Below, piece by piece: positions 9,412-29,001 of a stretch of DNA of 37,263 nucleotides. Both the position numbers and the translations under genes were made by a program. The stretch lies in assembly GCA_947630115.1 (NCBI GenBank), contig CANRGG010000019.1, positions 1 to 37,263 on the forward strand, given 5' to 3'. The notes under the pieces were generated by a model. That model had not been told where the DNA came from. It ran no database searches and was given only the letters and a program-made list of their open reading frames with translations. The stretch's first letter is position 1, and each line of letters begins with the position of its first letter. Source of the DNA: an uncultured Clostridia bacterium (GTDB lineage Bacteria; Bacillota; Clostridia; Christensenellales; Borkfalkiaceae).

Positions 9412-9430
9412 GTGCGCTCCGTATTTTTTT

Positions 9431-9459
9431 ATTATAAACGATTTCCGGCGATTTTTCAA
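9431..9459 (-). promoter_or_regulatory. Sigma-A promoter for the voltage-sensor-like gene
   Basis: On the minus strand TTGAAA (9454-9459) and TATAAT (9431-9436) are 17 bp apart, about 20 nt before the ATG at 9411. Confidence 0.7.
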
Positions 9460-10730: not shown

Positions 10731-13700
10731 ATGAAAACACTTCGGAAAAGCATGCTGCTTGTCCTTGTCGCGGTTTTTTCGTTGGCAGTCGGGCTGTTTG
10801 CGGCAGCTTGCGGCGGAAGCAAGATCACGGTCTCGTATGACCTTGGGACCGGCGCCGCTGCGACGACGAACGAAGTCACGCCCGGTGCGGAAATGGAAAT
10901 GCCCGCTCCTTCGCGTGAAGGCTTCTTCTTCGGCGGATGGTACGAAAACGCACAATTCACCGGCGAAGCCCTTCAAGGCAAGACCACCGCGCCCGAGAAA
11001 GACACGACATACTATGCGCGCTGGCTGAAAGGGTACAATTTGACCTTGAAACCGAACGGCGGAATGGTAAACGGCAGCACGGAAGATCGCACGTTCTCCG
11101 TTCCCGAAACGGGCAACCTGCTCGAATGGATCGGCAAGAATACGAACGGCAATCCGCAGAGAGGTTCGCTTACCTTCGGCGCTTGGCTCAACGGCGAGAC
11201 GGAGATCGGAGAATCGGATGTCATGCCGTCGGCGGATCTTGTCCTGACCGCGGGATTTAAGGTCGATTATTCGGTCGAGGTCTATGCGCAGACGGCGCCG
11301 CACGGCACCCAGTATGAAAAGAGCGAGGAGCTCTCTTTCACGGACAGTGGCTATCTCAACACGACCATCGATCTCAGACAGCATGATTTCGTGAACTACA
11401 TCGTGAACGAAGATTATGCGAGCGAGGAACTTCCCGCAAAAGTTTCCGGCACCCTGTCTGAGAATTCGTCCGAGAACGCTTTCCGCGTCTATTGCGACAG
11501 GGCGCAGTTCTCGCTCGTCTACAACGTCAACCTGCCCACGGGCGGGCTGGAATTCACCGGGAAGATGACCGACTCCTACTTCACGTTCGGGGAATCGGCG
11601 ACGGTCTCGAAGAACCACTTCGAGATCACGGGTTACCGCTTCACCGGCTGGTCCTCGTCCGCAAACGGCAGCGTCGAATTCATGCCCGGCGATACCATCT
11701 CGAGCGGCGACCACATTTTGTACGCCGTCTGGGAGAAGGGCTACGGCGACGTGTTCGGCTCGACGGACTACATCTTCTTCCCCACGCGGGCGACCGACCC
11801 CGAAGCGGTCCTCGTGCGCGGCGGGTATGAATTTGCGGGCCAGCGCGGCAACGTCGATCAGGAAATGCACTTCTCGCCTGATCCCGCGGGCAGCTTCGTC
11901 TCCTTCCGGGACGGGCAGATCATCGCAAAACTCATCGGAGAAAAGTTCTCGCTCTATTTTGCGGACCGGATCGGTGAGTACACCTACTACGAAGGCTATT
12001 ATAAAAAGGAAGGGGAGAGCCATTTCAACGAGAGCATCAAGCTCACGCTCGACGGTTTCAATACCGCAACGCTCGATGAAAACGGCTCCACGAAGTCTGG
12101 CACCTATGAATTCGATCCCGAAAAGGGCGAGTTCGTCCTCAAACTCAGAGGAAGTTCCGACAGAAACTTCACCTTCGGCGTGCAGGGAGACAAGAAGGTA
12201 TTCTCCTATCTCGGAAGAGAAAAGGGCGAATACAGCCAGTTCGTCCGCGCCGGCGTCGGCGGGACCTACTACCTCGGGACGCAGTCCTTTGAGCTCGACG
12301 GATACGGCAACGCCGTCCGCAATGTGGAAGGCTATGCGCCCCAGTACGGCACTTATGAAGCGCCCGATATGAACGACGCGAACCCCATCGTCACGATGCA
12401 CTTTGGAAGTTTCGACGCCCGGATCTGCCTTGACATCATCAACAGCGCAGATTATGACACTTGCGTCGTCGTCGACGACAGCCTCAACGCGCAAGTGTTC
12501 ACGAAAGACGACGAAACCTTGCAGCTCGACGGGATCGGCGCGTTTGCAGACAGCGCCATCTACACCCATGACGGACAGACGGAGCAGTTCGACTACTACT
12601 ATGAGAGTACGCTGCTCGGCGCGTACGTCCATCTGACCCTCAACTTCGACGAAGAGCATTATTGCTTCCGTCTTGACGAAGAGAATCACACCTTCTCGGT
12701 CGACGAAGTGGAGACCAAGACCTATCAGCTCGTTATCGGCAACGGCTCCTACAACAGCCTTGCCGGCGCTTATCTCGTCCTTTATGATGAGGCTTATACC
12801 GAGCCCGAAGCCGGCGACAACGGCGTTTTGAGAAAGGACGCAACGGGACAGGAAGCGGAGAAAGATCTTAAAGTTCCCGACGGCGCAATGCGGGCGGAGA
12901 TCTATATCAACCCTGCAAACGCCAATGGAGGTTGCATTTACAAGGGCTATACCTATACCGATCCCAACTATGGTCTGCCTCGGTTCCATACGACCTGGTG
13001 GATGAAGGGCCGTGCGGACTCGTTCTACACCGACTTCATGTACTGGACGAATACGAACTTCGCGCAGGGCCCGCTCTTCTACATCTTCCTTGATCAGTAT
13101 GTGAGCATTGACTCGGAAGGAAAACCGATCGAGGGCGTTTCCAAGACGAGCTCCTTCTACACGATGTGGGATAAGAGCGTGAACTACGACAAACGGTTCG
13201 ACAGCTACTACTTCATGTGGAACTCGACCATGGCGACGGCGCCCGGCAGCGGGTTCGAGGGCTTCGGCAACTTCTTCGTGGACGAGAACGGAAAGATCTA
13301 TGAAGGAAGTATCGACTACTACGTGCTCAGCGGTACGGAGCAAGCTCTGTTTGAGGCGGCGGCGCTGTTCGACTTCACCTATCGGGATGAGGTCGACCCG
13401 CTCCAGTTCCATCATTTCTACTTCGCGGCGAACATAGACGAGACGTACGGCGGAACGTTCGTGCTTCTCGATTCCGAGCCGATCAGATTGATGCTCATGT
13501 ACGACGAGATGAAGGCAAACACCTTCAGCGCAGGCTATAACAGCCTCTTCCTTCTCGGCGACAAAAATCAGAACGCGGTCTATTTCCGTTCGGAAGAGGA
13601 CTACTCCGATAACAACAACGGGGTCAATGGCAGATACGACGCGATCGGCGACCAGAACGGCCGTCGCGCATACAGATTTACCCCGCTCAACGAGCCCGAT

Positions 13701-16472
13701 GTCCAGCCCTTCGAATTTACGATCGAAGAGCTCGGCGAGGGCTGGCAGGATGGTTTCCTGATGTACCGTCTCTACAACGTGGACGACGACAAGGTCTTTA
13801 CGATCGAGGGCGGCGGCACCTTCGCCATTGACGGCTTCGGCTATGCGGCCTACACCGACAAAGACGGGAAGATGCTCGAGGGCGGCTATATCTACTCCGA
13901 CGGCAGAGAGCAGATCGCGCTCTACACCCCGACGGACAATGGAATTTCCCTCGATTACGCCTTCACGATCTCGCCCGACGACGAGAACGTCCTCATCCCG
14001 CAGAAGGAAGAGGAGAAGTCGAGCTACTTTGTTCTGTTCAATTCGGCGGGCGTGTTCCCCGACGGATTTGCGCAGGCGGCGGTTCTGTTCCATGCCGACG
14101 AAGGCACGATCGAGATCACCGAGATCGGCGAGTACATCTGGTACACGCAGGGTCACGTCAACGATGACGGCTCCATTGTGGATTCCTATCATCTGTTCGC
14201 GTCCGGCACCTATGTCCTTGTGGACGATGAAGATCATCTCTATGATCTCACCCTTGTCACCTACGACTTCCACAGCGGCGACGTTCTGAGCACCAACGTC
14301 AAATGGCGTGTGAGGCTCGAACAGGGCTACTGCTTCCTCATGGACGCGGAGGACGTCTACGGTTCCTATGCGAACGAGGATAGCGCCGTGTTCTATCTCG
14401 ACGGCTGGGGCAACGGCTGCTACATCGACCCGATGGGCAACCGCTATGAAGGCAGCCACAACATCATCGGCTTCGGCGACAACGACCGTTACTTCTACGG
14501 CGTGTTCGGCGGCGTCGAAGAAAATCCCGAACTTCTCTATGCCGCAAGATACGACAAAGAGACCAAGACGTTCGTCATCACGAACGATCCCGAAAAGGAC
14601 GGCTGGGTCACCTACTATGCGGAGGACTTCGGCGCGATCGAGTTCTGCCAGGTCTTTGCGATCGACAACGCGATGATCGGCTATTGGTTCCTCGATGAGA
14701 ACGATAAACTCCTGATCTATGAGCTTGACTGGGAGAGCGGTTATCAGCGGATCGACAGCCAGTATCCGACTCCTGATTTCGACGATAAGAACGAGGTTCT
14801 CTACTACGACGCTTCAAATCAGGATAGAGGCTTCTACCGCTGGAACGAGGGCGACAAGTTCACCTTCACCGGCAAGGTCGTCTTTGACGCCTTCAAGGGT
14901 CAAACCCTGGAAAGCGGCAAAATGCCGACCGAGATCAATAACCTTACGCTGGAATTTGTTCCCGACGGCACGGCGCTTCTGAACGCACCCGCAACCATGC
15001 ACTTCAAGTATGGCGATAAGGAGCAGGATATTCAGTACACGATCGTCGTGTCCCATCCGACGACGGCGCAGAACGCGAACGGCTATCTGAAGGCGGAAGC
15101 GTACTACGATGACGTTCCGTTCTATATCGAGCTCAACTACACCCATGCGAACGAGGGCGGAAACACCTTCGTGTTCCATGCGGCGGGCGCGGATTATGTG
15201 TGGTCGGATTTCCTTTCCACCGTGCTTCCCGATTACGTGCTGTACACCTATGGCTCGATCACGAGCGGCTTGACCTACTCGATCGGACCGATCGAATGGA
15301 AGTTCGATGAATGGGATCCTTCGAAGGGCGGCGAAAATCCCGACATGCTCATCTCCTGCGTTCTCTACGTTCCCGACGAGAACGGCAAACTTCTCACCTT
15401 CAGCATGTTCTATGAAGATGTCTTTGGGAAGGAGGAGACGGACGATAAGGGCGGTACGAAACTTGATGAGAGCAAGATCGTCACCCACGACGCGACGCTT
15501 TCTTCGCTCGTCGGCTTCAACCAGAACGATCTGCCCGTCTATGAGGTCAAGTTCAAGGGCGACGATGGCCGCACGTATTCGGTCTGGCTCGAAAAGCTGA
15601 CGGATACTTACGGAAATTGGAGCTCGCTCATCTATGCGGTCAACGTCTATAATGAGACGCAGGGAACGGGCGATAATTCGCAATACACCTACAAGGCATG
15701 GCAGTTCTGCGGTGCATATTATGCAAGCTTCGAGCAGATGTCGATCTACACGCTTGACATTGTGAAGAAAGAGGGCGACAAAGAAGTGAGCGTTCTTGAG
15801 GGCTACAACGGCGCAAGCTGGTTCGACAACGACGTCATCTTCTATTATGCCGACGAGAACGGCGCGCCGCTTGCATCGGTCAAGGAACCCGAACCGACGA
15901 CGGGCGAAGGCGGCACGGAAGGCGGCGCTGCAGCTGCGGCTGAGACGAACGACAAGGATCTCGAAAAGAAGAAGAGCGACTTCACGTTGGTCCACTTCGA
16001 CTTTGACGAAAAGACCAGAGCTATCACGGGTGCGACCCATACCAAGGATGTCAAGTACGTCGAGCTCAAAGCTAAAGGAAATGACACCATGGACGGCGGC
16101 ACCAGCGAGATGACCTTCAAGTTCTTCATTTCGAAGGGCGCGGACGGCAAGATCGACAAGGCGTACATCAACGGCTTGACCTGGGTGGTTTCGCAGACCG
16201 ATGCGGATACCGGCAACGTCAACAAGACGACGAACGAGTTCTCGAACGAGCTCACGAACCGCGTGAACTACCAGAGAGGCAGAAAGTCGAAGAAAGAAGC
16301 CGATACCTTCCTCTTCTACTTCACGAATCCCGTCTCGATCACGATCAGACTGTCCGGCGATTACAACAACCCGAAGGTAGAATACGAGATGATGAAGCTG
16401 GACTTCGAGGGTGAAGAGCAGGCTTCCGGCGGCGGCGCGTCGATATCCGGCGGCTCTCAGAGCGGAAACTGA
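10731..16472 (+). CDS. Giant InlB-repeat lipoprotein A with seven LDG-type motifs
   Basis: A 1913-residue surface lipoprotein. The signal peptide (residues 1-26) ends in LFAAAC, so Cys27 should be lipidated. Two InlB/Listeria-Bacteroides-type repeats are visible at about 35-98 (FFFGGWYENAQFTG...TYYARW) and 290-335 (FTGWSSSANGS...YAVW). Beyond them I recognise no known domain, but a motif of the form hydrophobic-LDG-aromatic-G followed by a Gly-x-Tyr strand recurs near residues 438, 521, 598, 841, 948 (degenerate), 1031 and 1221. A later shared block contains FDAF and LNAPAT (about 1390-1430). The end is a Gly/Ala/Glu linker near 1725 and a Gly/Ser tail. It is rich in Tyr, Asp and Gly, which suggests beta-rich modules. 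The next gene is a colinear paralogue. Function unknown; adhesion or glycan binding is a guess. Confidence 0.92.
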   Translation: MKTLRKSMLLVLVAVFSLAVGLFAAACGGSKITVSYDLGTGAAATTNEVTPGAEMEMPAPSREGFFFGGWYENAQFTGEALQGKTTAPEKDTTYYARWLKGYNLTLKPNGGMVNGSTEDRTFSVPETGNLLEWIGKNTNGNPQRGSLTFGAWLNGETEIGESDVMPSADLVLTAGFKVDYSVEVYAQTAPHGTQYEKSEELSFTDSGYLNTTIDLRQHDFVNYIVNEDYASEELPAKVSGTLSENSSENAFRVYCDRAQFSLVYNVNLPTGGLEFTGKMTDSYFTFGESATVSKNHFEITGYRFTGWSSSANGSVEFMPGDTISSGDHILYAVWEKGYGDVFGSTDYIFFPTRATDPEAVLVRGGYEFAGQRGNVDQEMHFSPDPAGSFVSFRDGQIIAKLIGEKFSLYFADRIGEYTYYEGYYKKEGESHFNESIKLTLDGFNTATLDENGSTKSGTYEFDPEKGEFVLKLRGSSDRNFTFGVQGDKKVFSYLGREKGEYSQFVRAGVGGTYYLGTQSFELDGYGNAVRNVEGYAPQYGTYEAPDMNDANPIVTMHFGSFDARICLDIINSADYDTCVVVDDSLNAQVFTKDDETLQLDGIGAFADSAIYTHDGQTEQFDYYYESTLLGAYVHLTLNFDEEHYCFRLDEENHTFSVDEVETKTYQLVIGNGSYNSLAGAYLVLYDEAYTEPEAGDNGVLRKDATGQEAEKDLKVPDGAMRAEIYINPANANGGCIYKGYTYTDPNYGLPRFHTTWWMKGRADSFYTDFMYWTNTNFAQGPLFYIFLDQYVSIDSEGKPIEGVSKTSSFYTMWDKSVNYDKRFDSYYFMWNSTMATAPGSGFEGFGNFFVDENGKIYEGSIDYYVLSGTEQALFEAAALFDFTYRDEVDPLQFHHFYFAANIDETYGGTFVLLDSEPIRLMLMYDEMKANTFSAGYNSLFLLGDKNQNAVYFRSEEDYSDNNNGVNGRYDAIGDQNGRRAYRFTPLNEPDVQPFEFTIEELGEGWQDGFLMYRLYNVDDDKVFTIEGGGTFAIDGFGYAAYTDKDGKMLEGGYIYSDGREQIALYTPTDNGISLDYAFTISPDDENVLIPQKEEEKSSYFVLFNSAGVFPDGFAQAAVLFHADEGTIEITEIGEYIWYTQGHVNDDGSIVDSYHLFASGTYVLVDDEDHLYDLTLVTYDFHSGDVLSTNVKWRVRLEQGYCFLMDAEDVYGSYANEDSAVFYLDGWGNGCYIDPMGNRYEGSHNIIGFGDNDRYFYGVFGGVEENPELLYAARYDKETKTFVITNDPEKDGWVTYYAEDFGAIEFCQVFAIDNAMIGYWFLDENDKLLIYELDWESGYQRIDSQYPTPDFDDKNEVLYYDASNQDRGFYRWNEGDKFTFTGKVVFDAFKGQTLESGKMPTEINNLTLEFVPDGTALLNAPATMHFKYGDKEQDIQYTIVVSHPTTAQNANGYLKAEAYYDDVPFYIELNYTHANEGGNTFVFHAAGADYVWSDFLSTVLPDYVLYTYGSITSGLTYSIGPIEWKFDEWDPSKGGENPDMLISCVLYVPDENGKLLTFSMFYEDVFGKEETDDKGGTKLDESKIVTHDATLSSLVGFNQNDLPVYEVKFKGDDGRTYSVWLEKLTDTYGNWSSLIYAVNVYNETQGTGDNSQYTYKAWQFCGAYYASFEQMSIYTLDIVKKEGDKEVSVLEGYNGASWFDNDVIFYYADENGAPLASVKEPEPTTGEGGTEGGAAAAAETNDKDLEKKKSDFTLVHFDFDEKTRAITGATHTKDVKYVELKAKGNDTMDGGTSEMTFKFFISKGADGKIDKAYINGLTWVVSQTDADTGNVNKTTNEFSNELTNRVNYQRGRKSKKEADTFLFYFTNPVSITIRLSGDYNNPKVEYEMMKLDFEGEEQASGGGASISGGSQSGN

Positions 16473-16518
16473 TCGAACAAGGCAAGATCTTTGCGTGAAA
16501 GATCGCGCAGAGAAAACG

Positions 16519-16549
16519 AAAAAAGACAGGCAAACGCCTGTCTTTTTTT
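16519..16549 (+). terminator. Rho-independent terminator after giant lipoprotein A
   Basis: GACAGGC and GCCTGTC form a stem around an AAAC loop, extended by A/T pairing and followed by TTTTTTT. Confidence 0.93.
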
Positions 16550-16612
16550 GGTAAGACCGCCCCGGGTTTCAACAAAATATTTTTTTTTCACAAACTAATC
16601 ACAGTCAGACAG

Positions 16613-16641
16613 TTGACTGTTCGCGGCGGGTATGGTAAAAT
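16613..16641 (+). promoter_or_regulatory. Sigma-A promoter of the second giant lipoprotein
   Basis: TTGACT (16613-16618) and TAAAAT (16636-16641) are 17 bp apart. AGGAGG (16673-16678) lies 6 nt before ATG 16685, the same layout as in the paralogue upstream. Confidence 0.75.
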
Positions 16642-16684
16642 AGAATTGTCTTATAATAGACAGATTATAAACAGGAGGACTAAA

Positions 16685-19600
16685 ATGAAAACACTTCGGA
16701 AAAGTATGCTTCTGATACTTGTCGCTGTTTTCTCGCTTGCGATCGGTTTGTTTGCAGCCGCTTGCGGCGGAAGCAAGGTCACTCTTTCGTTCGATTGGGG
16801 CGAGAATCGGGTTGACAAGTTTGAAGTTGCTCCCGGGGAAGAAATGCAGCTTCCCGCCAACGGCGACCGCGACGGGTATTTCTTCATGGGCTGGTACGAT
16901 AACAGCAGCTACACGGGAACAAAGTACGAAGACAAACTCACTGCGCCCGAAAAGGATACGACGTACTATGCTCGTTGGGCGAAAGGGTACACCATTACGC
17001 TCGATATCGAGACGGGCGGGACGATCGACGGCGGTCTGTCCGTTCTGGTTCCCGAGGGCGGAAATATCCTGGAATATCTGAACGGACATACGGCGTCCAT
17101 GAGCGGGCTTGCCTTCGGCGCATGGTTCAACGGGGACACGGAGATCACTTCCGAAAGCTCCATGCCTGCGGCCGATTTAACGCTCACCGCGAAATTCAAG
17201 GCGGATTACACGGTGAAGGTCTTTACGCAGGAGCAGCCCTACGGCACGACGTATGCGGAAAACAGCGAGCTTTCCTATACCGGTCAGGAATACGTCGGCA
17301 AGCAGCTCAGCCTTGCGTCCCGCACGATCCCCAACTATGTGATCAATCACAACTATGTGGGGGCGGACGGCTCCAAGACGATCGAGGAACTTGCCATCAG
17401 CAAGAATTCCGCCGAGAACCTGTTCGTTCTCTACTGCGACAGGGAATCCTATACGATCATCTATGACGCCAACGCGCCGCAGGGCAAGACGGTCATCGGC
17501 AAGATGGCGGATCAGCGTTTTGTCTATGAGGAAAAGGCGAGCGCACTTGAAAACGGCTTCTCCGTCGAGGGATGCCTGTTCGCAGGCTGGTCCACCGACA
17601 GAAGCGGCAGTATCAAATATCAGCCCGGCGAGGAGCTGGAGGGGGCAAGCTACACCCTCTATGCGATCTGGGATATCGGCTATGCGGATATGTTCGGCGG
17701 ATCGGACTACCTCTATTTCCCGCGCCTCACGCCTGACACCGTGGTGCTCATGCGCGGCGATTACAGAATGGAGGGCACTTTCGATAGCGCGACGTCCATT
17801 GCGACCTTCGGCGATCTGAAAGCGAAGGTCCTTGGCGACAAATTCGCATTCTACAGCGAAGCGCGCGCCGCTTCCTATAAACTTTATAGCGGCTACACGG
17901 ACGGAAAGATCGAGACGACGCAGCTCACCCTCGACGGATACTTCGGCGCAACGCTCAGCGACGGTTCGACCGGCACGATCTCTTACGACGCGGCGAACGG
18001 CTGCTACACGCTCGACATCGGCGGGCGCACGAGCGACATTCTGTTCAGCGAAGTGAACGGAGAGAACGTGTTCATGTACATCGGCAGCGAAGCCGGCACG
18101 TACACCGCATATGAGCTCAGAGGCAAGAGCACCGAGCTTCTGTTCAATGCGCAGCTTCAGTTCACGCTTGACGGCGTGGGCGGGATCGTCAGATACAATT
18201 TGGCGACCGGCATGCGTTCGTCGGGTACGTACGAACAGCCCGACATGCTGCAGGAGCCCGTTCCCTTCAAGGCTACGCTCACGGACGGAGAGAAAGTCGA
18301 GTTCCTGCTCTACAACGGGATCGCCCTCGTCAAGAACCAGACCTATTCGGACGTCTATACTTTGAAAGACGGCAAGGATGTGATCTATCTTGACGGCTAT
18401 AACGGTATGGTGGGAAGCTACTATACGCCGGATGGCAAAGACGCGATCGAGTGCAACTATTATATTGAGAACAGCATTCTCGGCGACATCGCGCACATCC
18501 TTCCGATGGACGGTAGCGACGAGCTTGCGTTCCTTCTCAAAAATGAAGGCGACAAAAAGACCTATGAAGCAACCTCTGTGTTCACTTCTTACCGCATGAT
18601 CGCGGGCACGGTCGTCGGGAACGATTATACCAACCAGTTCCTGCCGCTCGTCATGATCATTAAGGAAGAGGCTTATAACGGAGAGGGCGCGCCGAGCGGT
18701 GCGAAGGTCGCAAGCCTCTACTATGATGACAGTATCAGCGACGTCGAAGAAGTCACGACGGAAGAGCTTTATGACGGCTATGTCATTGACAACATCGGCT
18801 CGATGACCGAACCGTTCTCCACCTTCAAGGCGGTCGGCGAGAGCAAAACGAATATCGAAGAGCTTCAGATCGAAATGCCTTACACCGAGTTCTACTTCCA
18901 TACCTCCGACCAGTTCGGGATCGGCAACGTGTTCTATACCTATGGCGAAGCGGAAGTGACGGACGAGGACGGCACGACGACGAAGCAGAAAGACTACATG
19001 GTCTATGAGGATCTGAACGGCCAGGGCCAACTCATCGTTGGATCTTTGAATGCGGCGGAAGGTTACGGCGTCGAAGGCTTCGGTTCCTTCTACAAGACCT
19101 CGTCCGGATATATTGAGGGCGGCGTCAGCGCGTACTATTCGCAAAGCCTTGATACCCAGGAGTTTGGCGTGTATCAATATCTCGTGTTCCAGGTCCGCAA
19201 TCAAATGGATTACTCTTTGGTAAGCTATTATTACGCGGCGTACGGCGAGACCGATACCAAGATCGAGATGTTGAGCGAGCCGCCTCGCTTCCTTACGAGA
19301 ATCTTTGAATCCGCAACGGAGAGCGTGGCGGACGATTACGTCAGCCTGAAGCTCGACGGCAAGGGCAACGCGGTCTACTATCAGTCGAGAGAGGACGCGG
19401 AAAGCAGAGTGAACAAAGTCGAGGGAACGTACAGCTTCGTCACGAAGATCCAGATCGGAAGCTATGAAGAAGATCTCTACATGTTCAATTCGAGCGACAT
19501 CAACTTCACTTTCGTTCTCAACTCCATGATCCCCGAGGGCTACAACCTCGAGAGCGAAGTCTGGGAGGAGGGCTCCTACACGTTGACGAACGGCGAAACG

Positions 19601-21862
19601 CTTGAACTCGACGGCTACGGCGCATACGCCCGCTACACCGACAAGTACGGCAACGTGATCGAAGGCTTGTACCTCTACCAGGAGAGCGGCGATGCGCGGA
19701 GATTGGTGATCTACGATCCGAATAACACCGACCAGCAGGGCGGCATTATTGCCAGCATGGCCTTCGATGTGGACGCGGAAAAGAATATCACAGTTCTTAC
19801 GATGGAGTCGCAGGCGCAGTATTGGCTCCTGATCAACTCCGCTTACGAATACTACTTCGGCCGGACGCAGATCGCCATCAGCTTCACCGAAGGGAAGTAC
19901 GTCTCGCTCGTGGACATCAATACGGGCGAAGCTTTCGGTACGGGCACGTACGACGCGCTCGATTCCGAGGGCAGATATCTGATCAATGTCATCCTCAATG
20001 CGAACAACGAGTCGCATGAATGGACGGTCCAGCTCAGCGTGTATGCGCAGCAGATCCCGGTCTGCATGATCCAGGATGAGGACGTTTTCGGCTCCTATCT
20101 TGCAGGCGACAGCTCCGTCATCTATTTCGACGGCTTCGGCGGCGGCTTCATGGTCTCTCCCGATGGTTACAGAACGGAAGCCGGTTACCGCGTGCTCGAT
20201 GATGACTATGCAGTCTTTGAGACCGACGAAGAGGGCGAGATCTTCGTTGTCAAATACAACAAGACCGCTAAAACCTTTGAGGTCGTCAACAAGGACGAAA
20301 AGACTTACAGGACCTACTACTCCTCCGAGTTCACGGCAGTCGAATTCGGCGAAGTGCTCCGGATCAACGGTACGGTAGTCGCTTATTGGTTCCTTGAAGG
20401 CGACAAGCCCGTCTATTACTCGATCGATCAAGAGACCGGCGAGCTCAAGCGTTTGGACACGATCCCTTACGAATACAAGCCCGATGCAGAAACCTACGAG
20501 ATTGGTGAGGGCGATAATAAAGTCACGTACTCGCGTTGGAAGGGCACGGAAGAGTTCACTTTGAAGGGTAAGCTTGTCTTTGACGCCTTCAACAAGGCGG
20601 AGAACGGAGAGAACAAGGGCGAATGGGGCGACATGGAGCTTACGTTCAAGCCGGACGGCACTTCCGAACTCAACGCACCCGCAACCTTCAAGTTCAAGCA
20701 CGAGAACGAGGAGCAGACCTACACGGGCATTTACCGCGTCGTGATGGAGTTTGCGAACACCTCGAGCTCGACCCTGCATTTCACCTATCTCGTCTGCGAG
20801 AACGTTTCGCTCAGACTTGAGATGAACTATAAGGGAAACACTACGGAGGAGAACACCTTCGTGCTCCATGCGGCTGTGACGCAGGATATGAACTTCCTGG
20901 ATTATATCGGCGAGAACGGCGGACGCCGCACCGGTACGATCTATGTCGGTACGAGCTACACGATTGGCATGAAGAGCTGGCCTGTCACCAATTGGGACGA
21001 AAAGACGACTGCGCTCCTTTACGGCAGATTGAACATCTTCGACGTGAAGGGACAGTATCTCTCCTTCGAGGTGAATTATTACGACGCGATGGATGAGGAC
21101 AATATCATCGGAACCGATCAGAACTTCGGAAGTTCGATCTACCGTATCCTGACGAAGGGCTCGGATGATGTCGAGTACTCGGTCAATATCGAACTGATCT
21201 CGACGGGCAGCTACTACGTCTTTATCCCGTACTCGATCTGCGTGTACAAAGAAGTGGACGGCGATAACGGTGATAAATATGTTGTTGAGCAGTTCATTTC
21301 CTCCTATCAGACGGAAGAGTTCCCGTTCCTCGGCGTCTGGACCTGCAAGATTTTGAAGAACGGCAGCACGGGCGAAGAGAACGATCTTCTCAAAGATTAC
21401 GAGACGAACATTTGGGATACGAACATTGTCCTCAGCAAGTACAAAGGCGAAGACAAAGATTCGAAGAAGCCTGAATACTACGTCGTTTGGTTCGAGCTTG
21501 ATGAGAACAATCACGTTAAGAAGGGCCATTACAGAGAAGGTTCGAGCTTGACTGTCGAAGCAGAGGACTTCCAGCTTGAAGCGGTAGTTGTGTATGACAG
21601 CAACGGCAACAACATTGACGGATTCATCCCGCTCAAGGTTTCGAAGAAGGACACGGCAGGAAAGTTCCAGGAAATCGCGCTTGCGGGCTGGGAGTACGAT
21701 AAGGACAGCAAGTCGTACACGATCGTTTACAGCGTCAGCCAGACCTCGCAGGACTTCAAGGCGATCAAGATCTCCATCACGGGAACGAAGGGCAATGCCA
21801 CGTTGACGGTCGAAGATATTGATGTTAACACGCTTGGACCCGACGAGGACGAGGGCAACTAA
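16685..21862 (+). CDS. Giant InlB-repeat lipoprotein B, colinear paralogue of A
   Basis: A 1725-residue lipoprotein. Residues 1-31 differ from protein A at only a few positions (MKTLRKSMLL and GLFAAACGGSK are identical), giving a lipidated Cys27. InlB-type repeats lie at about 36-98 and 297-332. The LDG-type motifs recur near residues 414, 493, 567, 795, 888, 973 and 1146, in the same order and with nearly the same spacing as in A. The FDAF and LNAPAT block is also shared, near 1300-1340. The C-terminus is acidic (DEDEGN) and lacks A's Gly/Ala linker. The start is ATG 16685, after a perfect AGGAGG; the open frame runs upstream to 16613 through the promoter, which is not translated. It has its own promoter and two terminators. 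Function unknown; probably surface-exposed and beta-rich. Confidence 0.92.
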   Translation: MKTLRKSMLLILVAVFSLAIGLFAAACGGSKVTLSFDWGENRVDKFEVAPGEEMQLPANGDRDGYFFMGWYDNSSYTGTKYEDKLTAPEKDTTYYARWAKGYTITLDIETGGTIDGGLSVLVPEGGNILEYLNGHTASMSGLAFGAWFNGDTEITSESSMPAADLTLTAKFKADYTVKVFTQEQPYGTTYAENSELSYTGQEYVGKQLSLASRTIPNYVINHNYVGADGSKTIEELAISKNSAENLFVLYCDRESYTIIYDANAPQGKTVIGKMADQRFVYEEKASALENGFSVEGCLFAGWSTDRSGSIKYQPGEELEGASYTLYAIWDIGYADMFGGSDYLYFPRLTPDTVVLMRGDYRMEGTFDSATSIATFGDLKAKVLGDKFAFYSEARAASYKLYSGYTDGKIETTQLTLDGYFGATLSDGSTGTISYDAANGCYTLDIGGRTSDILFSEVNGENVFMYIGSEAGTYTAYELRGKSTELLFNAQLQFTLDGVGGIVRYNLATGMRSSGTYEQPDMLQEPVPFKATLTDGEKVEFLLYNGIALVKNQTYSDVYTLKDGKDVIYLDGYNGMVGSYYTPDGKDAIECNYYIENSILGDIAHILPMDGSDELAFLLKNEGDKKTYEATSVFTSYRMIAGTVVGNDYTNQFLPLVMIIKEEAYNGEGAPSGAKVASLYYDDSISDVEEVTTEELYDGYVIDNIGSMTEPFSTFKAVGESKTNIEELQIEMPYTEFYFHTSDQFGIGNVFYTYGEAEVTDEDGTTTKQKDYMVYEDLNGQGQLIVGSLNAAEGYGVEGFGSFYKTSSGYIEGGVSAYYSQSLDTQEFGVYQYLVFQVRNQMDYSLVSYYYAAYGETDTKIEMLSEPPRFLTRIFESATESVADDYVSLKLDGKGNAVYYQSREDAESRVNKVEGTYSFVTKIQIGSYEEDLYMFNSSDINFTFVLNSMIPEGYNLESEVWEEGSYTLTNGETLELDGYGAYARYTDKYGNVIEGLYLYQESGDARRLVIYDPNNTDQQGGIIASMAFDVDAEKNITVLTMESQAQYWLLINSAYEYYFGRTQIAISFTEGKYVSLVDINTGEAFGTGTYDALDSEGRYLINVILNANNESHEWTVQLSVYAQQIPVCMIQDEDVFGSYLAGDSSVIYFDGFGGGFMVSPDGYRTEAGYRVLDDDYAVFETDEEGEIFVVKYNKTAKTFEVVNKDEKTYRTYYSSEFTAVEFGEVLRINGTVVAYWFLEGDKPVYYSIDQETGELKRLDTIPYEYKPDAETYEIGEGDNKVTYSRWKGTEEFTLKGKLVFDAFNKAENGENKGEWGDMELTFKPDGTSELNAPATFKFKHENEEQTYTGIYRVVMEFANTSSSTLHFTYLVCENVSLRLEMNYKGNTTEENTFVLHAAVTQDMNFLDYIGENGGRRTGTIYVGTSYTIGMKSWPVTNWDEKTTALLYGRLNIFDVKGQYLSFEVNYYDAMDEDNIIGTDQNFGSSIYRILTKGSDDVEYSVNIELISTGSYYVFIPYSICVYKEVDGDNGDKYVVEQFISSYQTEEFPFLGVWTCKILKNGSTGEENDLLKDYETNIWDTNIVLSKYKGEDKDSKKPEYYVVWFELDENNHVKKGHYREGSSLTVEAEDFQLEAVVVYDSNGNNIDGFIPLKVSKKDTAGKFQEIALAGWEYDKDSKSYTIVYSVSQTSQDFKAIKISITGTKGNATLTVEDIDVNTLGPDEDEGN

Positions 21863-22948: not shown

Positions 22949-25867
22949 TTACTTGCCGGAGATCGCTTGGCGCTGTTTGCGGCTCTCAAGCCATTCGTGG
23001 GGCCACTTGAATTTGAACTTCCTCACCGCAATGTCTAGCAGGAACAGCACAATTGAGATCGAGATGAACAGGATCCGCGGGTCCCATTCCTGCCGCCTTT
23101 TCACAAAGACGCCGAGCAGCTCTTCTGCGTCGTAGATCAGCTTCCCTTCGCCCGCCGCGTCGTCTCTGGAAGAAAGCGCGATCAGAAGCTCTTTGCCCGC
23201 CGCATAGGAGTCCGGCTGCGGATCGTATTCCTCCGAATAGGAAAAGACCCGATAGCTCTTGCAATAGGAGAGGATCTCTCCCTGCGGAACGTCCCCGGCG
23301 GTTTGAATGCCGCTTTTCATCACGTCAAACGAGCGTGGCACTTTCAAAATAGTGACGGTATGAACGCCTGCCGCACGGTTTTCAAAGGTGAAACGGTTCC
23401 CGCTCAGGGAAAGCTCAAGAAGATCGAACTTCTGCACCGCGGAAGGGGAACTTCCGACAGCGCTTCGGGGCGGCTCCACAAAGGCGATGAGCTTTTTGTC
23501 GGGCTCTTCCTTCGGGTCGAAACCGTAGACGCTCACCTGCGTGCGATAGTTGTCTTCGATGAACCTTGCGTCGAGCGTTTGGGAACGGATACTCTGAACG
23601 GGCATCAGCCCCTTGACGACATTTTGCAGGAACCGCGCGCCCGCCTCGCTCTCCGTAAATTCCCGCGACCAGAAACCTTCGAGATCGCAGAGGAAACTGC
23701 CGACTTTCCCGTTCCCGTAATTCCACTGCGCATAGAGCGGCGCGTAGGTTGCGTTGAGGACAAGCTGCACGTCGTCCGAGGCCTTGGTGCGCGACCCGAA
23801 AAAGCCGTGCAGGGTGACGGCTTCGAGCGAGCTTTGTTCCACGCCGTCCAAAACATCGGTATGCGAACGGACGGTGGGGTGGAAATCGGTCACGACGGCG
23901 CCCGAAAGCTGTTCCATGAAGATGTCCGCTTTCAGGATTTGATCCAGAGTGAGCACTTCGCTCCCCATGAGTTCCTGCGCGCTGCCGTCCCCGATCTTTG
24001 CAAGCTCGATGAGATCCTCGGAGAGCTCATGGCCGATGGAGATCACCGTCAGGGTAATGCCGAAATTGTCGTGATAGCGCTTCATGATCTTGCCGTAGCC
24101 TTCTCCGCCCTCCCAATCGTCGAAGGCGTCTCCCGGCTGGCTGTCGGAGATGAGAAGAATGTGCTTGCGCTCGACGCTTGTCATGGTGCCGAGCGTCCTG
24201 CCCGCATGCTCGATCGCCGCGCCGTAGTTGGTGCCGCCGCCGTCGCCGTCCGCAATGCGGCGGATCGCCGTCACAATCCGGCTCTTCTGGGTCATCGGGG
24301 TCATGTCGAGCTTCACCGCATAGGAATCCTCGAGCGTCATGACGCCGACAAAATCGCGAGTGGAGAGGGCGTCCAACCCCTTGATCGCGCCACGGATCGC
24401 AAGATCGAGCATGGAGCCGCCGACGTCCGCCTCGTAATCCATGGAGTTGGAGCGGTCGATGATGATCGCAAGCGCGACGGGCGGCGTGTAGGAGACGGCG
24501 TCCACGGGCAGCATTTGCTGGTAGAGGGTATCTTGAAGGTCGGCTTCGTCATAGGCGTGCGGCTTGGGGACCGCTCCGCCCTCGGCGCCCTGCGCATAGA
24601 GGACATTCCCGTTTTCGTCCCGCTCGAATCCGCCGACGGTGAAGAGTCCGCCGCCGCGCGTTTCCACGTATTTTTGAAGGTTTTCCTCGAAGCCTTCGGG
24701 CATATCCGCATGGGAGACGTTGACAAGGACGATTTCGTCGTAATTCTGCATTGCTTCGAGGCTGACGGGGAGCCGGTCTCCGTCGCCGATCCGCACCCGG
24801 TCGAGGACGAGATCGCTCTGTCCCTGCGCCGCCAGCAAAATTTCGGCAAGTTCCTTGGACTCATCCGCATATTTTTCAATGAGAAGGAGTTTGTTTTCCT
24901 CGCTCAGGTCGCAATAGGCGTAAAAGACGTCATTTTCGGCGATCCCGTCGCCCGCCGCGGAGAGACGGAACTCGATCTCGTGATGACCCGCCGCGGAGAA
25001 GCTGTGGGGGAGAGTGACCGTCTGCAAGCCGAGCTTGATGGGAACGTTTTCCTGCCGAAAGACGCGGTCCTGCTCGTTTTCGCAGCGGTCGGTGAAGGAG
25101 AGATCGGCGTTTCCTTCGAAATTGCTGCTGATCGTGAGGGTAAATTCGAATTTTTCGCCGGGAGACAGGCTTTTGTCGGGCCGCGAGACGTTCGTGATCC
25201 GCATGTCGCTTGCCCCCGTTCCGGGGAAGAAGGTGGTGTCCACATGGATCCCGTCCATGGAGATCCGGCGGATCACGCTCATCGCGTCGCGGTCGGTCTG
25301 AACGCCGTCGCTGACGAGGAGGATCCGCGCATTGTCGGGAGAGTCTATGACGGCTTTTCCGGTCTCCCCGCCGCTCTTGTCATAGTCGGGATCCCAGACA
25401 AAGGTGAGCGCCGAACAGATGTCCGTCGCGGAAGTGTCGGGAAGGGGAGCGGAAAGATAGTCTGAAAAGGCGCGTTCGGGGTCGTGATCGTCCATTTCTA
25501 CGGCGATTTTTTGGTCGTATCCGAAGGTGACGACGGCGATCTTGCTCCGCCCATCGTTCGAGGAGAGGATGTCGTGCACAAACCCGTCGACGGAGGACTT
25601 TGCGCCCTGCTCGCTGAACGACGCGTCGATCAGAAGGACAAGCTCGTTGGACGGATCGGGCGCCTCCCAGGAAAAATACATGCCCGAGAGCACGCAGATA
25701 CAGAGGGTGAGCACGGTGGTATGAAGGATCATGGAGAGAATGCGGTTCCTCGTCTTGCGGTAGCGCTTTTCCATGCGGAAATAGAGGAACAGCGTGACCG
25801 CAAAGGCGGGAAGGAGCAGAAGCAGGAGATATCCGCTGACGGTGAATCGAATGGAAAAGTTTGTCAT
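22949..25867 (-). CDS. Membrane protein with two VWA domains and a glutamine-amidotransferase-like region
   Basis: A 972-residue protein anchored by two N-terminal helices (about 12-30 and 43-64) and a C-terminal one (about 925-945). The first VWA domain begins near residue 75 and has an intact metal site, DASFS. A beta-sandwich-like stretch follows (SLSPGEKFEFTLTIS). Then comes a region with RGGGLFTVGGF that resembles the class-I glutamine amidotransferase fold seen in such proteins. The second VWA domain begins near 463, with DRSNS, TNYG and ISDSQPGD. Relatives sit with BatA, DUF58 and MoxR ATPases in envelope-associated loci. The start is ATG 25867, after AAGGAGG; the upstream BatA-like gene ends 11 nt before. 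It is the last gene of the operon; the periodic array follows its stop. Confidence 0.9.
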   Translation of the reverse strand: MTNFSIRFTVSGYLLLLLLPAFAVTLFLYFRMEKRYRKTRNRILSMILHTTVLTLCICVLSGMYFSWEAPDPSNELVLLIDASFSEQGAKSSVDGFVHDILSSNDGRSKIAVVTFGYDQKIAVEMDDHDPERAFSDYLSAPLPDTSATDICSALTFVWDPDYDKSGGETGKAVIDSPDNARILLVSDGVQTDRDAMSVIRRISMDGIHVDTTFFPGTGASDMRITNVSRPDKSLSPGEKFEFTLTISSNFEGNADLSFTDRCENEQDRVFRQENVPIKLGLQTVTLPHSFSAAGHHEIEFRLSAAGDGIAENDVFYAYCDLSEENKLLLIEKYADESKELAEILLAAQGQSDLVLDRVRIGDGDRLPVSLEAMQNYDEIVLVNVSHADMPEGFEENLQKYVETRGGGLFTVGGFERDENGNVLYAQGAEGGAVPKPHAYDEADLQDTLYQQMLPVDAVSYTPPVALAIIIDRSNSMDYEADVGGSMLDLAIRGAIKGLDALSTRDFVGVMTLEDSYAVKLDMTPMTQKSRIVTAIRRIADGDGGGTNYGAAIEHAGRTLGTMTSVERKHILLISDSQPGDAFDDWEGGEGYGKIMKRYHDNFGITLTVISIGHELSEDLIELAKIGDGSAQELMGSEVLTLDQILKADIFMEQLSGAVVTDFHPTVRSHTDVLDGVEQSSLEAVTLHGFFGSRTKASDDVQLVLNATYAPLYAQWNYGNGKVGSFLCDLEGFWSREFTESEAGARFLQNVVKGLMPVQSIRSQTLDARFIEDNYRTQVSVYGFDPKEEPDKKLIAFVEPPRSAVGSSPSAVQKFDLLELSLSGNRFTFENRAAGVHTVTILKVPRSFDVMKSGIQTAGDVPQGEILSYCKSYRVFSYSEEYDPQPDSYAAGKELLIALSSRDDAAGEGKLIYDAEELLGVFVKRRQEWDPRILFISISIVLFLLDIAVRKFKFKWPHEWLESRKQRQAISGK

Positions 25868-25878
25868 AGGGCGCCTCC

Positions 25879-27855
25879 TTACACGATATCGCGGAATTGC
25901 AAAATCCATTCCGCAAACAGCAGCGCGACGGCTGCCGCCGCAAACCAGAAGAAGAGATCGCGGGAGTCCGTGCCCGCCGCCTCGCCCGTTTCCAGCGCGG
26001 CTTTGAGGTCGGAGACCCGGAAGATCCCGCTCTCTGCCTGCGGGATCCGAACATAGAGCTTTCGGATCTCGTCCGGCTTTTCGAGGCCGAAACGGGTCCT
26101 GAACGTGTACGTTCCCGTCTGCAAAAGTTCAAGACGGGCGGGAAATTCCTCTATGCGTTGGGCACTCCCATCCGGAAGGGTCGCCTCGAGAGAGGTGCCT
26201 TTGCAGCTGAGATTTGCGCTCTCGCCGATCTCATAGGCGTACTTTTCGAGGGTGCGCGGCATGAAATAGTTGATAAGATCATAGAGAAAGGTGACGAAAT
26301 CCCGTTCAAAAGAAAGATTGGATTGGTTGATACTGAATGCGACAAGAATGATCTTTTCATTCTCCCCGTCTTTGACGAGGAGCAGCGGATCCTCCCCGCA
26401 GAAGAGCAGGGGACGGAAACTTTCGTCGTATCCGGTGATCTTCCGGTATTCGGAGACGCCGATCCGCGAGGCGTCCAGATACTGCGTGAGGGGATGAGGC
26501 GCGCCGCTGTTGAGATAGGTGAAAGCGGGGAGCTTGACCGTCTCGCCGAAATGCACGCCCAGCCCTTCGATCTCCCGGTCGGGGTCCCAGAGAAGGACGA
26601 CGCCGTCCCGCGGGAGCCCGCTTTTTTCGATCTCTTTGGGAATGTTGTGCTCGAAAATGTAGTAGTCGAACCCGTTCAGCTCTGGGGTTTCCCCCTCATA
26701 GACCTGCCGGAAGGAGAGATCGCGCTCTCTTTGCATGACGTCCATGAGGATGTGAAAGCCCAGATAAAAATAGGTGTTCGGGTCGGAACTTTGGTATTGT
26801 ATTTTGACGCTGTCCTTTTCCCCGCCGTAGATCATGGCCGAATCGTCGTCCGAAATGGAGTCGTTCAAGCCCGAAAAATAGACGGAGACTTCCTCGAAAG
26901 AGGAGAAATATTGATCCTGTTTGCCGCCGCAGGCGACGTCCGTCGCGCGGACGCGGACGGTCTTTCGCAGCTGTTTTTCGGCGCTGTTGGCGTCCACTTC
27001 GAATCCGACGGCGGTCCTTAAAGCATAGTCAGTCTTTTTGCCGTCCCCGTTTTGCGCGCCCTTGATGTCAACGTGCAAAATCCGCTCCCCCGAAATGTTC
27101 CCGAACGCGCCGACCTCGACGGAAAAGACGAATTCATTCTCCTCGATCGCCGCCGAGCAGTTCAAGACCGCGATGTTCCATTCGCGGCTCGGATCCGCCA
27201 GATTTTTCACCGTGACCGCCCCGCCCAGATCGCCGTACTGCGTCCCCGTATAGAGGGTGACCTTTGCGGAAGGGGAGAGGAAGAGCTTCTCCTGCGCCAA
27301 AACGAGCGCCGTCTCCATGTCGGCGGCGCCGGAGGAACAGACCGCACCGTCGAGCGCGGAAACGACCTCGGAAAAGTCCTTTCTGCCCGCTCCCTCCACG
27401 AGAAAATGGGGGGCTTTGTCCGCTAAAATGACGGAGATCACGCCGTCGTCGCGGATGAGCAGGTCATTGATCTTGAGTTTGACGTCCTGCACCGCGCGCT
27501 CGAACCGGGTCTCCGCCCCCTTTTCGCCCGCAAATTTTGCGCGCATGCCGGCGGAGGCGTCGAGAATGACGATCTCTTCCTCGCTTGTATGGAGGGCGCT
27601 TTCCGAGATGAGACGGGGCTGCGCCAGAATGAAGGAACACAAGACGAGAACGAGCGTCTGGAAGAGAAAGACCAGAATGTTGCGGAAGGGGTCGATCGGG
27701 ATCTTTTTTTTGCGGTATCGGAGCGCCAGCTGCCAGACAAAGGTGCTCGACACGAATTTTTGCTGATATTTCGGCTTTAAGAGGTAGATGAGAATGAGGA
27801 CCGCGATCCCCGTAAGCCCCAAAAAACCGAGAAGATTGAGCCAGATCAATACCAC
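25879..27855 (-). CDS. BatA-like membrane protein with degenerate VWA domain
   Basis: A 658-residue protein. The N-terminal BatA-type region has a first helix (about 5-27), the basic LLKPKYQQKFVSSTFVWQLA segment, and a second helix (57-78). A VWA domain begins near residue 94, but its metal site reads DASAG, so the last Ser of DxSxS is missing. The large remainder (200-620) is extracytoplasmic and resembles aerotolerance-operon proteins that end in a C-terminal helix (about 633-652). The start is GTG 27855, with AAAGGGG upstream on the minus strand; no ATG fits. It is 24 nt downstream of the acidic membrane protein and 11 nt upstream of the two-VWA protein, so the three are co-transcribed. 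Confidence 0.87.
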   Translation of the reverse strand: MVLIWLNLLGFLGLTGIAVLILIYLLKPKYQQKFVSSTFVWQLALRYRKKKIPIDPFRNILVFLFQTLVLVLCSFILAQPRLISESALHTSEEEIVILDASAGMRAKFAGEKGAETRFERAVQDVKLKINDLLIRDDGVISVILADKAPHFLVEGAGRKDFSEVVSALDGAVCSSGAADMETALVLAQEKLFLSPSAKVTLYTGTQYGDLGGAVTVKNLADPSREWNIAVLNCSAAIEENEFVFSVEVGAFGNISGERILHVDIKGAQNGDGKKTDYALRTAVGFEVDANSAEKQLRKTVRVRATDVACGGKQDQYFSSFEEVSVYFSGLNDSISDDDSAMIYGGEKDSVKIQYQSSDPNTYFYLGFHILMDVMQRERDLSFRQVYEGETPELNGFDYYIFEHNIPKEIEKSGLPRDGVVLLWDPDREIEGLGVHFGETVKLPAFTYLNSGAPHPLTQYLDASRIGVSEYRKITGYDESFRPLLFCGEDPLLLVKDGENEKIILVAFSINQSNLSFERDFVTFLYDLINYFMPRTLEKYAYEIGESANLSCKGTSLEATLPDGSAQRIEEFPARLELLQTGTYTFRTRFGLEKPDEIRKLYVRIPQAESGIFRVSDLKAALETGEAAGTDSRDLFFWFAAAAVALLFAEWILQFRDIV

Positions 27856-27879: not shown

Positions 27880-29001
27880 TTACGGTTTCAGACTGTCGAA
27901 ATAGCCGCCGAGCGCGTCTTTGAGGTCGGAGGGAATGGAGTCGTCGCCCTCAACGTCGTTCATGCTTTCGTCGTAGTCGAATTCGGTGTGGTAGTCGGTC
28001 TTGCCGTCGATGACGCTGTTGTTGTCGCCCGAGCCGATCGTTCCCGCGCCGAGCGAAGGCTTGTCGGGATCCTGATCACTGTTGTCGTCGCTCTCGCTCT
28101 CGTCCCCGTCGCCCTCCTCCTTGTCGCCCGGGTCCTCGGAATCCTCGTCCTCCTTGTCGCCCTTGCCGTCGTTTTCCTGCTCGGAGGGCTGTTTGCCCTC
28201 GCCCTTGTCGCTGTCCTTGTCGCCGCGGTCGTTTTCGGTCGGCTGCAGGAAGATCGCCTCGACCGCAAAGCTCTCCTCGACGTTCAGATCCCACCGTTCG
28301 GGGGTGGGAACGCCGTCGCTCCACTGCAAAAAGGCGTAGCCCTCGTCGGGAACTGCCCGGACGGGGGAGGCGTCCGAACCCTTTTCGATCCGCTGTTCCG
28401 CCTCGCCCTCGATCCTGCCGTTCGCGCGCGCCAGATAAGTGACTTCCACATACTCGCGCTCCCGCTCCTCCGTCGAAGGGGACACCCATTCCTCAAAGAC
28501 TTCGTTGCCGTGTTTGATCGCGCCGAGCGAGGCGAGCGAAGAGACGGACGTCATCGCGGCGCAGAGCACGAAGGAGAGCGCAAGCACAAGAAGCGCCGTC
28601 TTGGGGATCCAAAGGCGCAGCTGCGTTTCCCGGACGGTTTTGAGCTGTTTTTCGGCGTCATCGCGCTGGCGGCGGGCGATGAAGGAGTCGTCGTTTTCAA
28701 GTTCCAACATCGTGACCGTGCGCTCTTCGAGCCCGAGACGGTCCACTTCCCGCGCGGTTTTCCGCTCGGTCGGGCGGAACCGGAGGAAATAGAGGAGGGG
28801 GAGGACGGCGGAGAAGGTCAAAACGCCTGTCCCCGCGATGATCAGCCACAGCCCCCAGGCGGGCAGAACGAAAAACCAAACGCAGAAAGCGGCGAGAAAA
28901 CTCACCGAAAGCGCGAAAACGAGCGCATAGATCGCCGACTTCAAAAGCCCGATTTTTTTCAGTCTCGTCCGGTATTTTCCGAGAAGGTTATTCTGTTTCA
29001 T
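27880..29001 (-). CDS. Membrane protein with DUF4175-like helical segment, InlB-type repeat and acidic tail
   Basis: A 373-residue protein. Two helices lie at about 22-46 and 50-72. Then comes an amphipathic segment (VDRLGLEERTVTMLELENDD, then SFIARRQRDDAEKQL) that resembles a stretch in DUF4175-type proteins of MoxR/VWA loci. A third helix is near 130-155. The C-terminal half is outside: a divergent InlB-type repeat (about 185-240; PDEGYAFLQWSDG and VEAIFL) and then a highly acidic Asp/Glu/Ser/Gly tail (about 245-320). The ATG at 29001 follows GGGAGG. It is the second gene of the LRR-VWA operon. The DUF4175 resemblance is from memory of the motif and is not certain. Confidence 0.83.
   Translation of the reverse strand: MKQNNLLGKYRTRLKKIGLLKSAIYALVFALSVSFLAAFCVWFFVLPAWGLWLIIAGTGVLTFSAVLPLLYFLRFRPTERKTAREVDRLGLEERTVTMLELENDDSFIARRQRDDAEKQLKTVRETQLRLWIPKTALLVLALSFVLCAAMTSVSSLASLGAIKHGNEVFEEWVSPSTEEREREYVEVTYLARANGRIEGEAEQRIEKGSDASPVRAVPDEGYAFLQWSDGVPTPERWDLNVEESFAVEAIFLQPTENDRGDKDSDKGEGKQPSEQENDGKGDKEDEDSEDPGDKEEGDGDESESDDNSDQDPDKPSLGAGTIGSGDNNSVIDGKTDYHTEFDYDESMNDVEGDDSIPSDLKDALGGYFDSLKP

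Follow-up and report, generated by a model that had tools for sequence, protein, structure and literature searches.

Tandem giant lipoproteins with arrays of an LDG-marked repeat unit in an uncultured Borkfalkiaceae bacterium, and a MoxR/VWA gene set beside some of their relatives

Two giant lipoproteins, A and B, are encoded in tandem in the window, i.e., the whole 37,263-nucleotide stretch of an uncultured Clostridia bacterium analysed here (GCA_947630115.1, contig CANRGG010000019.1). By their alignment they are paralogues, old duplicates of one another, and their central regions carry runs of a repeat of about 85 residues, the LDG unit, also present in many related giants. It is reasonably probable that the family as a whole comprises lipid-anchored surface giants with arrays of DUF5640-like units, whose assembly is aided by MoxR/VWA proteins. 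For A and B a surface scaffold or adhesin-like role is most likely, their assembly being perhaps linked to MoxR/VWA.

Both proteins start with MKTLRKSMLL...FAAAC, read by eye as a signal peptide and a lipobox with Cys27, and are 93% identical over these 27 residues. Export, lipidation and outward display follow from such a signal and lipobox; hence A and B would be exported via Sec, anchored to lipid and displayed outward. The claim that the pair must be important for the surface of the cell is plausible. No LPXTG-type sorting motif or hydrophobic tail was seen by eye in the last 40 residues of either protein. The N-terminal InlB-type repeats mentioned in the earlier note are present in both, with matches above cut-off to PF09479 (Pfam) and TIGR02543 (NCBIfam); as no LRR match was obtained at E 1 with Pfam, A and B are not internalin- or BspA-type LRR proteins. 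The predicted layout continues with approximately 250 residues and the run of LDG units, of which five or six were confidently detected and nine or more may exist; the C-terminal part is predicted to be all beta. The FDAF/LNAPAT block that the same note had described as common to A and B is visible in their BLASTP alignment, and the corresponding region of B (residues 1290-1380) shows a weak DUF5640-like profile match (19.4%, P 0.0012). The features are listed in Table 1, where the length of B is counted from the ATG, the start given by the ORF program being a TTG at 16613. On the reverse strand, the window also encodes a membrane protein (8458-9459) with a repetitive N-terminus rich in Ser, Asp, Thr, Gly and Pro, followed by an ion-channel-like part (by eye).

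Table 1. Proteins A and B, their domains and the neighbouring genes (positions within the window)
Feature	Position	Strand	Evidence
Protein A, giant lipoprotein, 1913 aa	10731..16472	+	ORF and translation; lipobox Cys27
InlB B-repeat domain of A, residues 33-96 (best stretch)	10827..11018	+	PF09479, 62.3 bits for protein, cut-off 27
LDG unit of A, residues 407-502	11949..12236	+	
LDG unit of A, residues 506-555 (part)	12246..12395	+	E 1.5e-5
LDG unit of A, residues 577-675	12459..12755	+	E 9.8e-15
LDG unit of A, residues 1011-1104	13761..14042	+	E 1e-14
LDG unit of A, residues 1200-1306	14328..14648	+	E 1.9e-15
FDAF/LNAPAT block of A, ~residues 1381-1435	14871..15035	+	BLASTP alignment with B
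Protein B, giant lipoprotein, 1725 aa, paralogue of A	16685..21862	+	Translation; BLASTP
InlB B-repeat domain of B, residues 34-96 (best stretch)	16784..16972	+	PF09479, 76.1 bits for protein, cut-off 27
LDG unit of B, residues 387-488	17843..18148	+	E 3.1e-8
LDG unit of B, residues 461-543 (start overlaps preceding unit)	18065..18313	+	E 8.2e-8
LDG unit of B, residues 548-641	18326..18607	+	E 2.9e-9
LDG unit of B, residues 883-947	19331..19525	+	E 1.4e-8
LDG unit of B, residues 962-1060	19568..19864	+	E 6e-14
LDG unit of B, residues 1126-1223	20060..20353	+	E 3.6e-17
FDAF/LNAPAT block of B, ~residues 1295-1355	20567..20749	+	BLASTP alignment with A
986-aa VWA protein, convergent to B and homologous to the second VWA protein of the operon	22949..25909	-	PF13519, PF00092 over cut-off
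BatA/VWA-like membrane protein, 658 aa	25879..27855	-	PF07584 24.9 bits (cut-off 25.9), PF13519 21.6 (27), both below; homologues
373-aa homologue of the first membrane gene in the operon, N-terminus with hydrophobic stretches (by eye)	27880..29001	-	
BspA-type LRR lipoprotein, 486 aa	29027..30487	-	PF13306, E 1.5e-91

A and B are 32% identical over nearly their whole length (640 bits, BLASTP), the N-terminal part being better conserved (44%) than the unit region (30-31%); between B and its orthologue the respective values are 72% and 48-53%. A related genome, G036, carries both orthologues, A' and B', in tandem, and in the tree A groups with A' and B with B', each with 100/100 support; therefore, the duplication predates the split of this species from G036. 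This history bears on the earlier note, which had listed seven LDG-type sites in each protein with closely matching gaps. The positions are right and the similarity of the gaps is real. However, the letters vary: strict LDG occurs at four of the seven sites in A (438, 521, 598 and 1221) and five of the seven in B, the variants being IDG at A 1031, EG at A 841 and B 795, and FDG at B 1146, while A 948 lacks LDG. Nor are the gaps independent observations, as A and B align nearly end to end: the motifs have the same order and spacing because of tandem duplication and common descent. Equal motif order was thus ruled out as independent evidence for function, full-length homology accounting for it. 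When A, B and the two orthologues were aligned, four of the seven sites fell into the same column, two were one column apart and one was nine apart. The pattern [LIVF][DE]G[YFWAGVI]G occurs six times in A, compared to a mean of 0.28 in shuffled sequences (at most 2 in 500 shuffles), and four times in B (mean 0.25, maximum 3); plain LDG is less striking, with four occurrences in A (mean 1.07, maximum 6) and five in B (mean 0.84, maximum 5).

The motifs mark an internal repeat. A unit profile was started from 100 seed segments around LDG motifs and iterated for four rounds over 43 giants, which had been chosen from 403 ORFs at BLASTP E 1e-8. At E <1e-3 it found 248 units in the 43 proteins and none in reversed sequences, with three to nine copies per protein, six being the commonest number (18 of the 43). 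The consensus core of the unit is GTYTDEDGETLTLDGYGNATYTDGDGETVEGTYTV, with more strands after the core. Alignment A1 contains 36 of 114 filtered units; alignment A2 contains 41 of the 43 family rows (L038 and L039 left out), and alignment A3 contains 33 of the 43, ten being omitted as short, truncated or much longer there. A profile built without A, B and the G036 orthologues still recovered five units in A and six in B (<1e-3). At the same threshold the controls gave three matches in 400 locally shuffled copies and seven in 290 neighbour ORFs (Z=1), which makes any single weak unit uncertain. The unit profile was also compared with 90-residue windows cut from the family alignment; this comparison, partly circular as these windows hold rows used to train the profile, yielded (by window start, B numbering) 96-99% for 345-570, 0.3-63% for 615-750, 88% for 795, 79% for 840, 93-99% for 885-1155 and 61% for 1200. 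With this circularity in mind, the units seem to stand nearly back to back in two blocks, and seven may be an undercount, as windows between the motifs match the profile, too.

The source genome contains five such giants: A, B and one each on contigs C7, C23 and C38. Counting further paralogues, as had been proposed, thus yielded three beyond A and B in this genome and many across the genus, where units were found at E 1e-6 in 45 of the 61 genomes drawn from it. At the level of the order, units were detected at E 1e-3 in 18 of 151 genomes drawn, representing 10 of 91 genera. In a different family of the order, one genome has two LDG ORFs in tandem, which contain 7 and 11 units (L162, G130:C1, 2824-12525); no MoxR gene was found in that genome at E 1e-20. 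A lipoprotein of 542-593 aa comes before each giant in a clade of ten (L044, L046-L053, L074). The idea that these partners of about 550 aa are LRR proteins was rejected, since Pfam finds a C-terminal AhpC-TSA/thioredoxin-like domain in the two scanned (L044, L046). Cysteine content showed no clear difference between clades of giants. A scan of genome contigs gave one weak locus, which has just the InlB part in common with the giants. Neither the LDG family nor an operon of MoxR and a giant was described in the literature matches listed, which consist mostly of starts of abstracts.

Within the genus, 20 of the 41 places with a MoxR gene show one order of genes on one strand: a membrane protein (TM), MoxR, DUF58, BatA/VWA, VWA, an LRR lipoprotein and an LDG giant. 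The distance from MoxR to the giant, measured by script, is 8.4-9.1 kb in 19 of these 20 loci. Of the remaining places, five end at a contig edge, and the other 16 have a VWA gene without any LDG giant in the 12 kb downstream. These counts come from one search at E 1e-30 over 61 genomes drawn from a larger genus, with both L065 and L081 standing for G033; L096, scored as having no giant, has an ORF with two units about 12.8 kb downstream, past the 12-kb limit. Clustering of the neighbour genes and inspection of the ORFs placed MoxR, DUF58, BatA/VWA, VWA and an LRR_5 lipoprotein before many giants, and Pfam confirmed each of them in the L080 operon, where MoxR has the Walker A motif GVPGVGKT and DxSxS is found in BatA, VWA and DUF58. 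The same gene order occurs in G111 and G070, members of two other families of the order. MoxR was detected in four of the 13 LDG genomes outside the genus, two of them (L158, L159) having the whole order and two (L160, L161) no giant beside MoxR; in the other nine, none was found at E 1e-20. In the source genome, DUF58, BatA, VWA, LRR and giant genes follow one another on C23 (L078) and C38 (L038), the contig ending where MoxR would lie, and the giant on C38 is truncated by the end of its contig. These breaks, in or just past DUF58, are perhaps assembly gaps at near-identical copies. In some of the 16 loci without a giant, including the C6 locus of the source genome (L116), another large lipoprotein follows the LRR gene; in the stretches 7236-13868 of L116 and 7736-14269 of L113 it is about 1115 aa long, that of L113 having a Big_3 domain. 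The place of the giant in the operon seems exchangeable. The set MoxR-DUF58-BatA-VWA is also kept in L110, L111, L115, L118 and L119, from genus members that have no LDG units at E 1e-6; the next gene in L110 and L115 encodes a lipoprotein of 523 and 482 aa, respectively.

The operon link holds at the level of the family and extends to A and B only indirectly, because the neighbouring copy is convergent and lacks MoxR and DUF58. No full MoxR-BatA/VWA operon stands ahead of A and B themselves; the VWA, BatA, TM and LRR genes lie 1.1 kb away. The BatA protein of the window has DASAG where that of L080 has DSSAS. In G036, a similar cluster (BatA, TM and LRR in the stretch read) is located about 14 kb from A' and B' on the same strand.

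From the gene order we infer that MoxR/VWA proteins act on LDG giants. The operon genes may be co-transcribed, and the VWA membrane proteins, with energy from MoxR, would assist in assembling the LRR and LDG lipoproteins or in keeping them at the envelope, the unit array forming an elongated or stacked scaffold with binding surfaces shown outside the cell. A bolder version of this model, which we regard as somewhat unlikely, takes the operon for a MoxR-powered surface-assembly machine, with MoxR and DUF58 inside the cell and two VWA proteins in the membrane. The LRR and LDG giant lipoproteins would be cargo dedicated to it or form its outer part, with the LDG array as the exchangeable working end; A and B would be a branched-off pair, which either the MoxR-less side cluster or, in trans, the main machine would serve. 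Rather doubtful, too, is the opposite possibility, that the giants form a stand-alone family of surface adhesins or decoys, which diversifies by duplication and binds host, mucin or neighbour-cell ligands, the linkage to MoxR being historical and functionless. Many giants do lie elsewhere: of the 43 tree rows, which were chosen by best BLAST match, 11 come from the operon context (forming one clade with 100/100 support), and the MoxR-less LDG genomes outside the genus, as well as the better conservation of the N-terminal part than of the unit region, are in line with such a family. However, order, strand and spacing are kept in the 20 genus loci and in two other families, which is hard to explain without selection holding the genes together.

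As to the structure, the AlphaFold2 model of B residues 355-1275 (41 rows; pLDDT 84.6, pTM 0.68) consists of nearly all strands. Comparison of the motif segments in this model, a check proposed in the earlier note, revealed a similar order of short strands in the well-aligned units (GxY, LxLDG, xATY, GxYxx, later FxFxL and TF), with about seven to eight strands per unit; two stretches, from 770 and from 1064, fit the unit profile poorly. The guess of repeated small beta domains is thus backed by both the repeat profile and the model, and the unit is probably a small beta-meander, which may close into an eight-stranded antiparallel barrel of the lipocalin/calycin type or form another beta architecture. 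The model of B 1236-1720 is mostly beta as well (pLDDT 83.4, pTM 0.78). Foldseek comparison of B 355-1275 with PDB gave 36 matches at E <0.001 among the best 50 of 511, beta-propeller and Rhs/teneurin chains reaching E 1.9e-8 with TM-scores near 0.1; the best 50 of 384 in BFVD included five at E <0.001, and the best 50 of 533 PDB matches of the C-terminal model included one. None of the best 50 in any of these searches superposed (TM-scores at most 0.21, rmsd mostly >20 Å), and the beta-propeller, Rhs/teneurin and other beta-rich chains were for this reason not accepted as relatives. A PDB sequence search with A was without result.

That the units belong to no known family, as was stated earlier, is true at the cut-offs of the curated collections: no Pfam model matches them, in whole proteins or in 36 single units, and no NCBIfam model covers the LDG region of the whole proteins. 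However, the proposed profile search of the segments brought up, besides this absence of curated matches, a weak tie to DUF5640 (PF18692), and descent from a DUF5640-like domain is likely, as far as profiles can tell. Among the faint Pfam matches of the 36 units (E up to 1; 16 families), DUF5640 appeared for two units and Lipocalin_4 and Triabin for one each; the units miss the DUF5640 cut-off of 28.5 bits, the best E being 0.052. The hhalign score of unit versus DUF5640 reaches 19.5 for 36 rows and 20.4 for 248 (probability 13-21%), compared to 12.4 for the best of 60 and 10.7 for the best of 100 column-shuffled controls; the best of 18 other windows of the giants reached 17.6 with the units, not far below DUF5640 (19.5). 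Along B, DUF5640 peaks at residues 1020-1110 (69%, P 4.4e-5, best of 36 windows). In the opposite direction, the unit profile matched L135 and L139, both over Pfam's DUF5640 cut-off, at E 2e-4 to 1.5e-3 in the course of six rounds; L155 came next (0.002-0.008), the rest of the 26 DUF5640 loci were weaker, and the best reversed sequence had E 0.025. Alignment A4 contains 13 of the 26 DUF5640 places.

The LDG unit may therefore represent a known small domain in divergent form, and the arrays would have arisen by its repeated duplication. The rival view, a wholly new fold unrelated to DUF5640 and lipocalin-like domains, we consider improbable. It fits the failure of the units at the Pfam and NCBIfam cut-offs, the PDB profile search with no significant match (best E 0.025) and the lack of superposition among the best 50 PDB matches of either model. 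Against it stand the DUF5640 profile ties and a 1442-aa ORF of G065 (L163) with a weak match of each kind, an LDG unit at E 2.9e-4 and DUF5640 at 20.5-21.4 bits, below cut-off; a repeat of the unit search on L163 did not recover the LDG unit.

Small tandem beta domains on a lipid anchor are common in binding proteins, and the C-terminal model has weak Foldseek matches to sialidase and levansucrase among the best 50 of 533; however, nutrient capture, in which LDG units would bind glycans or other nutrients and pass them to a transporter, is very unlikely, as these matches have TM <0.2 and E of at least 3e-3 and, among the ORFs around A and B (judged by eye, four of them scanned with Pfam), none stood out as a carbohydrate enzyme, SusC/D-like or ABC binding gene.

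Assembly of scaffold-like surface giants with MoxR/VWA assistance thus being the preferred reading, two points deserve attention. First, the LDG unit, an unnamed repeat, now has a defined profile and a possible ancestor. Second, to our knowledge the targets of MoxR/VWA systems are known in few cases, and a gene set from MoxR to the LRR lipoprotein with a giant lipoprotein next, its order kept in three families, provides a concrete client candidate.

The described domains closest to those of A and B are DUF5640 and the InlB B-repeat/List_Bact_rpt domain. The DUF5640 model has 85 positions, with a GtW/GtY start, a hydrophobic strand, a DG turn and a later GtY strand as in the LDG unit. However, its 14 places over cut-off in the order are open frames of 112-172 aa, whereas LDG units, which remain below Pfam's cut-off, occur in runs within lipoproteins of about 1200-2400 aa. 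InlB-type proteins share with A and B the N-terminal domain, but it makes up only a small part of both, and the LDG region is another repeat.

For the gene set, MoxR/VWA pairs are presented as chaperone-like remodelling systems in the excerpts of three papers (PMC3893208, PMC9976466, PMC8430577). The Bat (Bacteroides aerotolerance) operon and Borrelia bb0170-bb0176 likewise combine MoxR, DUF58 and BatA-type VWA membrane proteins, but the excerpt of PMC5700661 names no giant LDG or LRR lipoprotein there, and BatD or TPR had no match in the five L080 proteins scanned. The nearest published layout met, again in an excerpt (PMC8430577), is the PFNA operon of bifidobacteria (pkb2, fn3, MoxR, DUF58, tgm), in which a large secreted protein is likewise clustered with MoxR and DUF58. 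Neither the L158 giant nor any of the five L080 operon proteins scanned matched kinase, transglutaminase or Fn3 domains, and in the LDG operon MoxR and DUF58 are accompanied by BatA/VWA proteins and an LRR lipoprotein. In the same excerpt, the authors regard the PFNA MoxR as a chaperone possibly involved in folding FN3 (PMC8430577).
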